Shown: in pieces, positions 9,498 to 14,437 of the stretch
How the letters are laid out: every line of letters starts with the position of its first letter
Position numbering within the stretch: position 1 is the stretch's first letter
Virus record (IMG/VR): IMGVR_UViG_3300006929_000111
Location: 1-25,519 of that record
Source of the DNA: a virus
DNA: 25,519 nucleotides
Reading direction: 5' to 3' (one strand)
Translations under genes and position numbers: made by a program
Notes under the pieces: model-generated
The model's database searches: none
Told to the model about the DNA's origin: nothing
Seen by the model: only the letters and a program-made list of their open reading frames with translations

Positions 9498-9869
9498 ATG
9501 AATATATTAGGACAAAGAGTTAAGGAATTACGCTTAAAACAGGGCTTTACTCAGCAAGAGTTAGCTGATAAGTTGTCAACCTCTAACATGAATATTGCAA
9601 ATATTGAGTCTGGTCGTGTCAAAAATCCTAGAAACTTATCTGAATTAGCTGAGATACTTAAAAGTTCTCCAAACTACCTTCTTGGTGGTGAAAGTGATAT
9701 TCTTAAACTAGATGCTGAAATACATTTATTAGCTACAGACAATGAAGTTAAAAATGATTTTGAGAAAGACTTTTATGTCGTTTCTATAGATAAAGATGAG
9801 AAGTTATTTTTGACTGATAATGCAAAAATTGTTGCTAGAGTAAAAAAATCTTTTACTGAGTCAAAATAG
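9498..9869 (+). CDS. XRE-family repressor, short form
   Basis: 123 aa from ATG 9498; the TTG at 9483 would add five residues but cuts into the non-coding leader. The N-terminus is a Cro/CI helix-turn-helix: LGQRVKELRLKQGFTQQELADKLSTS and NIANIESGR, then LAEILKSSPNYLLGG. The C-terminal 55 residues are acidic and too short for an S24 self-cleaving peptidase domain, so RecA-triggered self-cleavage is not expected. Position and orientation, divergent from the replication operon and upstream of the early plus-strand genes, suit the lysogeny repressor. There is no good Shine-Dalgarno. Confidence 0.8.
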   Translation: MNILGQRVKELRLKQGFTQQELADKLSTSNMNIANIESGRVKNPRNLSELAEILKSSPNYLLGGESDILKLDAEIHLLATDNEVKNDFEKDFYVVSIDKDEKLFLTDNAKIVARVKKSFTESK

Positions 9870-9904: not shown

Positions 9905-9923
9905 CATAATGATAATGATTATT
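9905..9923. promoter_or_regulatory. Fur-box-like sequence
   Basis: The 19 nt CATAATGATAATGATTATT agree with the Fur consensus GATAATGATAATCATTATC at 16 positions. It lies just before the structured RNA region. The stretch is AT-only apart from three bases, so chance resemblance in an AT-rich genome is quite possible. Confidence 0.25.
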
Positions 9924-9924
9924 A

Positions 9925-10362
9925 TTTAGATTCGACAGGTGAGAGGCTCTAGACATCTTTAAAAAGCGAGGGCAAATCGACTGATTCTGCAAGCAGCGAT
10001 TAACAAATAAATACAGAGGATGTAAATCTTACTAGCAGCAAGGGAGAGGTCTCCCAGTTCGCTGCTTTTTTAACAGCTGACTAACAACCCACGAGAGGTT
10101 AATCCTAACTACCCTCTTTGAAATGAACATGGAAGATAGGTTTGGATGCGAAACCAGTTTGCTATCTAAAATTAAACAAAAAAAAGTCGTTATGGGGAAT
10201 GTGTTTTTGATCTTAATAGAAATGCGACACATTCATTTTAGGCTTTGTCGAAGAAGCCACTATAACAAAGTGTGAACAACCACACTTTAAATAATACATA
10301 TGAGATGGTACTGGTATGAGTAGGGATTCTTTTTTAAGGATTCGATGCCCCATCTATAAGTA
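9925..10362 (+). ncRNA. Large structured RNA with partial tmRNA-like architecture
   Basis: About 440 nt without a plausible gene but dense in helices. Seen in order: GATTCGACAGG (9929-9939), identical to the D-domain core of tmRNA; AATCG-CTG/CAG-CGATT (9975-9983 with 9994-10001), whose loop TTCTG (9985-9989) can pair with CAGAG (10014-10018) as a pseudoknot; AGCAGC/GCTGCT (10034/10061) enclosing GGGAG/CTCCC; AGAG-GTTA/TAAC-CTCT (10094-10117); AGATAG/CTATCT (10134/10162); GAATGTGT/ACACATTC (10197/10227); GGCTT/AAGCC (10241/10254); AAAGTGTG/CACACTTT (10267/10281). ATCTTTAAAAAG (9955-9966) can pair with CTTTTTTAAGGAT (10329-10341), a long-range closing helix, next to a T-loop-like TTCGATG. Against tmRNA: no convincing acceptor stem, T-stem, CCA or tag frame ending in Ala-Ala. 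A divergent tmRNA, an unnamed phage RNA or an antitermination leader all remain possible. Confidence 0.45.
10034..10071 (+). terminator. Hairpin plus T-run inside the structured RNA region
   Basis: AGCAGC (10034-10039) pairs with GCTGCT (10061-10066). Inside it GGGAG (10042-10046) pairs with CTCCC (10051-10055) across AGGT. Six Ts follow (10066-10071). It may end the repressor transcript or a 140-nt small RNA, or be a helix of a longer RNA that is read through. Confidence 0.45.
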
Positions 10363-10381
10363 CAAACCTACGGAGAAAAAT

Positions 10382-10480
10382 ATGTTTAACAGTAAGATTA
10401 AAGACAGCTACCTAGTAGGTGTTCCTTGGTGGATGTGGTTTTTTGACATCGACCATTTAGAAGAGGGGGTGCTATGTTAG
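10382..10480 (+). CDS. 32-aa leader peptide or small protein
   Basis: ATG 10382 follows a strong Shine-Dalgarno (GGAG, 6 nt spacing), the best in this area. It encodes MFNSKIKDSYLVGVP, a Trp-rich WWMWFF patch, then DIDHLEEGVLC. The stop is inside the next gene's start (ATGTTAG), so translation of the next gene is probably coupled to it. The aromatic patch could lie on a membrane surface. No family was recognised. Confidence 0.5.
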   Translation: MFNSKIKDSYLVGVPWWMWFFDIDHLEEGVLC

Positions 10481-10767
10481 ATACTCCTGAAAAAACAACT
10501 ACAATTTCAACAGCAAAATTTACAGCTTGGTCAAAACATTGTGGTAAATATTATGATTCTTTGACAAATTTGCTAGTTGAAAGTAAGTACATATTATCTA
10601 AAGACATAATGACAGCACATGCTCTTGTGACTGATATTCAATTAAAAAGTGAAAAAGTACCTTTTGAGGGTAAGAGTGTTGATATGTCAGATGACCTTTT
10701 TCATTGGGTTTCTATGTCTATCAGAGGGCGTGAATTGAGAGATTTATTTGCACCTATAGAAAGATAA
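10474..10767 (+). CDS. Unknown early protein
   Basis: 97 aa, not recognised. Thr-rich N-terminus (PEKTTTISTAKFTAW), then helical segments including SKDIMTAHALVTDIQLKSE and an amphipathic C-terminal end (SMSIRGRELRDLFAPIER). It is soluble and of mixed charge. It starts within the stop of the 32-aa ORF and is followed 18 nt later by a strong terminator, so it closes the first early transcript downstream of the repressor. A lysogeny or early takeover role is possible from position only. Confidence 0.6.
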   Translation: MLDTPEKTTTISTAKFTAWSKHCGKYYDSLTNLLVESKYILSKDIMTAHALVTDIQLKSEKVPFEGKSVDMSDDLFHWVSMSIRGRELRDLFAPIER

Positions 10768-10785: not shown

Positions 10786-10818
10786 AAGCCAGAGTTTAAC
10801 TGCTCTGGCTTTTTTTTG
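10786..10818 (+). terminator. Strong intrinsic terminator
   Basis: AAGCCAGAG (10786-10794) pairs perfectly with CTCTGGCTT (10803-10811) around an 8-nt loop, followed by a run of Ts. It ends the transcript from the repressor/RNA region. Confidence 0.92.
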
Positions 10819-13150: not shown

Positions 13151-13341
13151 AAGAATATCTAAACAAAAATGAAGCCTCAGAGTATATGTGTATGTCTTTA
13201 TCTGGCTTTAAAAAATTAGTTATAGATTGGAAAATACCTTCTGGTAAAGTTCCTGGTGGAAGAATTATATATAGAAAGTCTGACTTAAAGAAATTGAATG
13301 AGCGTTTTTTTAATGCCCCAGATATGAAATTACAAGTTTAA
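13147..13341 (+). CDS. xis: Excisionase (Xis), HTH_17/MerR-like
   Basis: 64 aa from ATG 13147, which overlaps the previous stop. The sequence KEYLNKNEASEYMCMSLSGFKKLVIDWKI is the helix-turn-helix of small excisionases, followed by the wing VPGGRIIYRKSDLKKLNERF. Such proteins bend DNA at attP arms and steer integrase towards excision. It lies immediately beside int, on the opposite strand, and the two 3' ends overlap by 12 nt. It is transcribed with the early/lytic operon, which suits use at induction. Confidence 0.82.
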   Translation: MKEYLNKNEASEYMCMSLSGFKKLVIDWKIPSGKVPGGRIIYRKSDLKKLNERFFNAPDMKLQV

Positions 13342-14337
13342 ATTACCCATAGAGTCTTTTAAATATTCAGGCGATAGATGTGCATATTGTTCTGTTGTCT
13401 GAATACTAGCGTGTCCTAACAAAACTTGAACTGTTCTAATAGGTACTCCGTCCATAACTAAGTGTGAAGCAAAAGTATGTCTTAGACAATGAACACCCCA
13501 TTTTCCACGCTTAATACCTACTTTTTTACATATCCTTCTAAACCTAGTTTTTGGCATATCTTTATGTACCCTAGGCAATACATATTCTTTAGTTAAATCA
13601 AATCTATTAAGTGATGCTTGGGCTTCGTCAGTAATCCTGACAAACCTCCATTTACGACTTTTAGTCCTATTACCTGCGGTTGATATAATATAAATAGAAT
13701 TATTTTGTATATCTTCTACTTTTAAATTATAAAACTCTCCCATTCTTAGTCCAGTATTGGCAAGAAATTTCCACCAATGGCTATATAAAGTATCTTCTTT
13801 ATATATTAATTGTAACTCATCCGTTGTAAAGTATTTAGGTGGTCTGCTTTCTTCATTTGGTATTTCTTTAATTTTAAAATTAGGAATTTTATATCCATCT
13901 GCTTTAGCTTGATTAAGTAATGCTCTTAATATAGAAAGTTTTCTATTAATCGTTGCAGTTTTTATTTGACCTTTTTTTAAACCTATAAAACCATTAACAT
14001 CATTAATCGTTATCTCATGTAGCATTAGGTTTTTAAATAGTGGCTCAAAATCAAATAACAAAGTATGTTGACTGGTTTCATAACTGCTTGGGTACTTTAA
14101 TAGGAACTGTATAAGATATGTATTAACATAATCTGAGAAGTGAATTTCTGGTGTTTCGTGGTCATTTTTGAGATAAGTTAATTCATATTCTTTCTTTCTC
14201 ATTTGGGCTTGTGCTTCACGCTTAGAAATATCCCCTAATGACTCTCTTTGTCTTCCAGTAGGGTTAGACTGTGTAGCTAGTCTTAAATCAGAGTAATCTA
14301 GGTAATAATACTTGCCTCTACGATATATCCTAGCCAT
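13330..14337 (-). CDS. int: Tyrosine integrase
   Basis: 335 aa from ATG 14337; a TTG at 14382 in the same frame would add 15 residues, but MARIYRRGKYYYLDYSD is a typical integrase N-terminus. There is an N-terminal arm/SAM-like region, then the catalytic domain with R198 (NTGLRMGE), Lys226/Lys229, H283-x-x-R286 (HCLRHTF), H309 (LLGHAS) and nucleophile Y318 (TEQYAH). This is the full catalytic set. It recombines attP with a host tRNA-Val gene; the attP core lies about 140 nt upstream of the gene. There is no good Shine-Dalgarno, so translation may be weak. Confidence 0.95.
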   Translation of the reverse strand: MARIYRRGKYYYLDYSDLRLATQSNPTGRQRESLGDISKREAQAQMRKKEYELTYLKNDHETPEIHFSDYVNTYLIQFLLKYPSSYETSQHTLLFDFEPLFKNLMLHEITINDVNGFIGLKKGQIKTATINRKLSILRALLNQAKADGYKIPNFKIKEIPNEESRPPKYFTTDELQLIYKEDTLYSHWWKFLANTGLRMGEFYNLKVEDIQNNSIYIISTAGNRTKSRKWRFVRITDEAQASLNRFDLTKEYVLPRVHKDMPKTRFRRICKKVGIKRGKWGVHCLRHTFASHLVMDGVPIRTVQVLLGHASIQTTEQYAHLSPEYLKDSMGNLNL

Positions 14338-14342
14338 AAAAC

Positions 14343-14359
14343 TGTGCCAAATTGTGCCA
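14343..14359. repeat. TGTGCCA direct repeats, candidate integrase arm sites
   Basis: TGTGCCA occurs at 14343-14349 and 14353-14359, 10 nt apart, and again at 14569-14575 on the other side of the tRNA-derived core. This left/right arrangement about the core is what arm-type binding sites would show. Confidence 0.45.
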
Positions 14360-14437
14360 TAATTATCCCCAATTATAGCCAATAAAGACTATTTATGTCA
14401 AATAAGGAATTATAGAGATATAAGTCTTACATACTGA

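Follow-up and report, generated by a model that had tools for sequence, protein, structure and literature searches.

A double-pseudoknot RNA family of temperate phages and gammaproteobacterial chromosomes, possibly a mobile 5′ leader

GOLLD, ROOL and IMES are large structured noncoding RNAs that came from metagenomes, belong to phages and marine bacteria, and have no known role. In phage HK022, antitermination is the work of the put RNA. Among the type III antitoxin RNAs, the ToxI monomers are H-type pseudoknots, and ToxI repeats have been acquired by phages, as in the pseudo-ToxI of phage TE (PMC5086642). The RNA described here resembles GOLLD, ROOL and IMES in being a structured noncoding RNA of phages and marine bacteria, but it is smaller, ends at a start codon and gives no Rfam match over threshold. 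With the type III antitoxin RNAs (ToxI, antiQ, CptI) it shares an apparent chain of H-type pseudoknots of ∼35–45 nt before an ORF, in phage as well as host; unlike them, it has no tandem near-identical repeats of ∼35 nt, its 5′ core is conserved by itself, no ToxN-like endoribonuclease gene was recognised beside it, and the families and folds of its neighbours match no toxin. Riboswitch-type and other structured leaders, such as the Cobalamin riboswitch of phage contig L008, have in common with it a conserved aptamer-like 5′ core, a variable expression part and a pseudoknot or hairpin by the Shine–Dalgarno sequence, whereas here the downstream genes are unrelated and the RNA is exchanged between phage and host. 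tmRNA (RF00023) likewise has a 5′ pseudoknot followed by a chain of further helices, yet the present RNA has no tRNA-like domain, tag frame or CCA, its D-motif is found in a single copy of the family, and the host genomes carry an ordinary tmRNA. While structured leaders and pseudoknot antitoxins are already known as kinds, this element is not, either in Rfam or in the literature that we found, and its passage between phage and host, ahead of genes that are not related, is out of the ordinary.

The DNA analysed here (the window) comprises all 25,519 bases of one IMG/VR record, and its copy of the RNA is the reference for all coordinates. It carries temperate-phage genes, namely an integrase, an Erf-type annealing protein and a CI-like repressor, as well as a large-terminase-like gene recognised by eye, and its portal protein is ∼25% identical to portals of marine phages. 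A first-pass annotation had proposed a divergent phage tmRNA in a gene-free, unusually structured region at 9925-10362. The gene-free and structured character of the region held up: it lies between the repressor (9498-9869) and a 97-aa ORF (10474-10767), and over 9925-10375 its fold has a stability of z = −2.74, with 0/100 shuffles equally stable. The RNA is best bounded at about 9937 and about 10375, adjoining the ATG at 10382. The features of the locus are as follows.

9498..9869, + strand: CI-like HTH repressor gene, directly 5′ of the RNA (PHROG transcriptional regulators, E 1e-16; Pfam HTH_3/HTH_19; synteny)
9905..9936, + strand: AT-rich, tentatively promoter-like stretch in the gap between repressor and RNA, holding most of the window-private GATTCGACAGG
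9937..9973, + strand: pseudoknot PK0, with helices S0a AGGUG/CAUCU (9937-9941/9954-9958) and S0b GCUCU/AGGGC (9946-9950/9969-9973); swap test and hand-registered counts
9975..10018, + strand: pseudoknot PK1, with helices S1a AAUCG/CGAUU (9975-9979/9997-10001) and S1b UUCUG/CAGAG (9985-9989/10014-10018); covariation, swap test and covariance model R1
10018..10029, + strand: small hairpin after PK1, GAU/AUC (GGC/GCC in L086 and L089), read from the sequences
10035..10071, + strand: hairpin GCAGC/GCUGC with a T run, a possible attenuator by sequence reading
10072..10302, + strand: variable run of hairpins and possible pseudoknots, not conserved in L087, L086 or L003
10303..10363, + strand: 3′ module, AGAUG/CAUCU (10303-10307/10351-10355) and GUAC/GUAC (10308-10311/10360-10363), with inner stem GGUAU/AUGCC (10313-10317/10345-10349)
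10370..10375, + strand: Shine–Dalgarno-like ACGGAG, the end of the conserved leader (CUACGGRG before the start codon in L089, L092 and L101)
10382..10480, + strand: 32-codon ORF by direct reading, overlapping the start of the 97-aa gene
10474..10767, + strand: gene for a small helical protein of 97 aa (alignment A10; AlphaFold pLDDT 86)
10786..10817, + strand: intrinsic terminator ending the unit of RNA and ORFs, also in L087, L086 and L090

Promoter-like matches within 9905..9936 number 7 against 3.6 in shuffles, which is not clearly higher, and in relatives −10-like boxes lie 12–28 nt 5′ of GTGAG. At the other end of the unit, homologues of the 97-aa protein stand behind the RNA in most phage relatives; the AlphaFold model is confidently helical, and PDB, BFVD, Pfam and PHROGs yield nothing over threshold for it. 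The family shows a conserved ‘VP(F/Y)..(I/V)DM’-like motif and a C-terminal ‘L..(F/Y)F’ motif. The 32-codon ORF right 3′ of the RNA's Shine–Dalgarno sequence, for which no family match was found, overlaps the 97-aa gene in ATGTTAG, an overlap that suggests that translation may be coupled or that the ORF may encode a leader peptide. The leader and ORF unit ends with an intrinsic terminator in each of the four phages scanned (the window, L087, L086 and L090).

The conserved core of ∼80 nt (9937-10018) consists of two consecutive H-type pseudoknots, PK0 and PK1. The first-pass annotation had seen PK1, right behind its supposed D-domain motif, and compensatory changes in the relatives bear this pseudoknot out, while PK0, just 5′ of it, had been overlooked. 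The core loops AGAC, AAGCG and UAACAAAU are conserved, and PK1 has a conserved A-rich loop, UAACAAAUNAAUA. In the PK1 alignment, 96.7% of the cells pair, compared with 24–46% in slid controls, and covariation reaches a score of 0.195, shuffles giving 0.031 (0/500); the second subgroup scores 0.141 against 0.069 (2/500). Because MAFFT misaligned PK0 across subgroups, PK0 was tested with hand-registered strands and with a swap test in which strands are exchanged between sequences, free of any alignment. Permutations reached the helices' own pairing 13 times out of 20000 for S0a, 6/20000 for S0b, 0/20000 for S1a and 300/20000 for S1b. Hand registration of PK0 gave 22 doubly changed cells and a score of 0.414 against 0.176 (0/500), values that carry the bias of a register set with knowledge of the structure and that come from related sequences. 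S1b is statistically the weakest of the four core helices, and it may be less invariant in the first phage copies than it looks, since the search pattern fixed UCUG/CAGA; full replacements are UCUG/CAGA, ACUG/CAGU (L102), AACUG/CAGUU (L110), GACU/AGUC (L109) and AACCUU/AAGGUU (L125). Compensatory changes support all four core helices, the fourth most weakly.

Seen against this fold, the traits that had pointed to tmRNA look different. The proposed D-domain core GATTCGACAGG is indeed present, once in the window at 9929-9939 (0.25 chance matches expected at ≤1 mismatch), but its tmRNA meaning does not survive its absence from the relatives, the ATTCGACAGG part occurring in 0 other loci fetched. 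Since in L087 and L086 an AT-rich −10-like box runs directly into the conserved GTGAGAGGC, most of the motif is placed 5′ of the conserved RNA, in what is likely the promoter spacer. A 12-bp closing helix (9955-9966/10329-10341) exists in the minimum-energy fold of the window, but it cannot coexist with PK0 and was therefore rejected. Bases 9955-9966 are already taken up by the 3′ strand and loop of this supported pseudoknot, bases 10329-10341 fall within a local hairpin's loop, and the 3′ part has no homologous counterpart in L087, the closest relative. What had been read as a T-loop, TTCGATG, is the 3′ strand side of a local hairpin (10313-10317/10345-10349). Neither ARAGORN nor reading of the sequence found an acceptor stem, a T-stem or CCA, as the annotation itself had conceded, and neither found a tag frame. 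ARAGORN gave 0 matches in the window and in five relatives, and the Rfam tmRNA covariance model gave no tmRNA match even at permissive thresholds, whereas the same model scores 106–217 bits, above cut-off, in 62/83 genomes of the host order. Genomes that carry the RNA have an ordinary tmRNA at another place, namely G001 (C10 vs C30), G013 (C12 vs C3/C22), G022, G031 and G032.

Relatives of the core were collected by pattern and by covariance model. An exact pattern led to L086, a relaxed one to L089/L098, L090 (=L008=L099), L091, L092, L093/L100 and L096, and a second pattern with one helix left free to the viral L102 and to L101, a contig of the single-cell genome ‘uncultured gamma proteobacterium AG-313-C04’. 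The early matches L088, L094, L095 and L097 were dropped because they look like coding false positives. The core occurs in nine other IMG/VR contig groups, and an HTH/CI-like repressor gene stands beside it in every phage relative with sequence on that side; in L087 (=L002) this repressor is 93% identical. No phage of the searched public collection matches the locus at the DNA level. Covariance model R1, built from seven copies, recovers L090 (34.7 bits, E 6e-5), L091/L096 and L102, none of which was in its training set. In the 83 genomes of L101's order it finds eight copies in seven genomes, seven of the copies being new; in a sample of 369 class and 398 phylum genomes, searched with stricter filters that lose weak matches, it finds the starting genome only. 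The name AG-313 denotes the plate of bacteria sorted from one sample, and the data set to which this sample belongs has 16 SAR86 genomes in it (PMC6122165); the gammaproteobacterial carrier order is therefore probably SAR86, a likely rather than a proven assignment. The window's portal protein has no match in the 83 genomes of this order, its nearest phages being ∼25% identical, so the host of the window's phage is known by inference only.

No family of Rfam release 15 matches the RNA region at the gathering cut-off, a permissive search with three copies gave chance-level matches for the window and none for L106 or L090, and our literature search found no paper on this RNA. Protein-coding conservation was rejected as well: no frame is open across the core copies (stops were counted in ten phage-side copies) and near-identical phage and host copies differ by 1–2 nt indels in loops, so the conservation is not that of a coding sequence, and translations of the 3′ module (IYKYKPTE-like) have no match in PHROGs. 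With an overlooked frame excluded in this way, the stretch belongs to a structured-RNA family not described before, with copies in phages and chromosomes. An alternative offered by the first-pass annotation, a new phage RNA class, thus stands as far as a new, covarying and noncoding structured RNA goes; the restriction to phages does not. One close phage relative, L003 (1920-2266; repressor 85% identical), has other pseudoknot-like modules in place of PK0-PK1, and its 3′ modules match host copy L106 at 85% over 200 bp.

Past PK1 the RNA continues for ∼70–380 nt in a modular part that differs between phages. The window's tail after PK1, which includes the variable run, has an MFE z of −3.0 and a pseudoknot-chain z of −1.2 against shuffles. 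Pooled over 11 copies that share modules and so are not independent, the variable part reaches Stouffer z values of −5.9 for nested folds and −5.4 for pseudoknot chains. L090 can form six pseudoknots in a row (whole RNA z −5.7), and L104 has a second module of PK0 layout, AAAGUGG/CCACUUU with CCUA/UAGG. For pseudoknots beyond PK0 and PK1, the support is statistical. Terminator-like hairpins stand inside the leader in L087 and L086; the hairpin at 10035..10071 is not scored as a terminator in the window. The 3′ module is common to the window, L089, L092 and L101, directly 5′ of CUACGGAG and the start codon, and is also present in L091/L096, where that Shine–Dalgarno sequence is missing. L101 has compensatory pairs in it (GGUC/GACC and UGCAU/AUGCA), but the first stem, AGAUG/CAUCU, is broken in L092, so the module is plausible and not proven. 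In the window, L087, L086, L089, L092, L093, L101 and L106 the structured element adjoins the ribosome-binding site of the downstream gene, and in long copies the conserved similarity reaches the Shine–Dalgarno sequence and stops at or near the start codon.

The surroundings of the RNA differ between phages and chromosomes. In phages the order is a divergent Cro/YdaS-like gene (in most, by eye), the CI-like repressor, the RNA, a protein of 94–129 aa from one diverged family, and an intrinsic terminator; the downstream gene differs in L091, and in L102 it falls outside the available sequence. The chromosomal copies, apart from a second copy in one genome, occupy a fixed non-phage locus, with genes named by eye: a PfkB-type kinase, a 94-aa winged-helix protein, the RNA, a 191-aa membrane protein and a convergent mfd. 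Several host copies begin ∼20 nt behind the winged-helix (wHTH) gene, in an apparent operon. Where readable, the genes behind the RNA are co-directional and of unrelated kinds (the phage helical protein, the 191-aa membrane protein, an ABC-transporter binding protein). Among more remote members of the order the winged-helix and membrane genes also lie close together but no core was detected there, which makes the locus a chromosomal one and the RNA probably something added to it. The second copy just mentioned, L110 in genome G013, has a GMP reductase/IMP dehydrogenase-like gene on one side and an ABC-transporter binding protein gene on the other.

Despite these unrelated flanks, phage L093 and host L106 are 86% identical over 276 bp, and phage L089 and host L101 77% over 332 bp, with the similarity confined to the RNA and ending about at the start codon. 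Such pairs show that the RNA is exchanged between phage and host as a unit.

The best explanation of these data, to which we assign a probability of roughly 0.45, is that the RNA is a mobile multi-pseudoknot 5′ leader that controls, in cis, the gene behind it. Cis control is favoured because of the position of the RNA and its co-transfer with the Shine–Dalgarno sequence, and the covarying core, the recovery by R1 of copies outside its training set and the co-directional genes behind the RNA speak for it too. We infer that the next gene would be controlled by a factor recognising the core. PK0-PK1 would be the first part of the nascent transcript to fold and would capture a cellular factor, either a protein or another ligand; the bound state would then be passed to the 3′ part, where the elements concerned are attenuator-like hairpins and, next to the Shine–Dalgarno sequence, the final pseudoknot or hairpin, and this part would set the output of the downstream protein. 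Against such a leader, the core lies up to ∼450 nt from the gene that it would control, and the short host copies L107 and L109 have no clear 3′ module. The downstream genes, moreover, do not have a function in common, as genes behind most metabolite riboswitches do, which weakens the mechanism and leaves it a little short of even odds.

The main rival, unlikely in our judgement, is a trans-acting RNA of pseudoknot modules, an antitoxin or decoy like ToxI or antiQ that is kept by the host, copied by the phage, and neutralises or titrates a host protein. The apparent chain of H-type pseudoknots of ∼36–46 nt, with the six that L090 can form in a row, would suit this, as would the second PK0-layout copy in L104, the order of promoter-like box, pseudoknots, terminator-like hairpin and ORF in L087 and L086, and a movement between phage and host that is independent of neighbouring genes. 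However, the modules are not sequence repeats (0 repeats in the window RNA), no ToxN-like neighbour was recognised, a ToxN search of the 83 order genomes, run without a positive control, came back empty, and the downstream phage protein is helical with no toxin fold match. Rather doubtful, too, is a new trans-acting class of non-identical H-type pseudoknot modules, at a fixed locus in abundant ocean bacteria and captured by phages as a mimic in an RNA-based conflict or superinfection system.

It is improbable that the nascent RNA, in the manner of put, modifies RNA polymerase for read-through of a downstream terminator into early genes. The core does lie close to where a putative early transcript begins, with a terminator behind the small ORF in 4/4 phages scanned, but the placement of several host copies in an apparent operon behind the wHTH gene does not fit, hosts offer no obvious read-through target because mfd behind the membrane gene runs convergently, and put hairpins have a fold other than PK0-PK1. 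A recombination or integration site, with attP/attB within the RNA in place of a functional RNA, would explain both the exchange and the confinement of phage–host similarity to the RNA; with the integrase gene (13330-14382) 3 kb off, no prophage seen at the host site, and helices kept by compensation that a DNA site does not need, we think this quite improbable. A divergent or derived phage tmRNA, suggested by GATTCGACAGG with a pseudoknot behind it in the window, has hardly any probability left, being refuted by the motif's absence from relatives and the missing tRNA-like end, along with the lack of Rfam or ARAGORN matches and the normal tmRNA in the same host genomes.

If this account is right, a fast-evolving pseudoknot RNA not described before is common to small-genome marine gammaproteobacteria and the temperate phages that infect them, and in phages it lies right behind the lysogeny repressor. 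It would offer an entry point to gene regulation in uncultivated bacteria and phages, might serve as a marker tying metagenomic phages to hosts, and would supply structural studies with naturally occurring pseudoknot variants. By-eye reading of a 25-kb fragment can thus lead to an RNA family missing from Rfam.

Two further observations concern other structured RNAs near these loci. At host loci L121-L127 and L129 the gap between the winged-helix and membrane genes measures 139–310 nt, and some such gaps (e.g. L122-L124) are filled by other structured-looking sequence with no R1 match, so the chromosomal locus seems home to several related RNA types; L121 ends in the same terminal module, GGGGCAUCG..GCGUAGGAG. 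Phage contig L008/L090 (3078-3210, + strand), and also L009/L099, carries a cobalamin (B12) riboswitch aptamer (RF00174, 48.6 bits, cut-off 31.5) directly behind the stop codon of the CI-like repressor and 5′ of the double-pseudoknot RNA, an unusual place for such an aptamer, in a phage immunity region.
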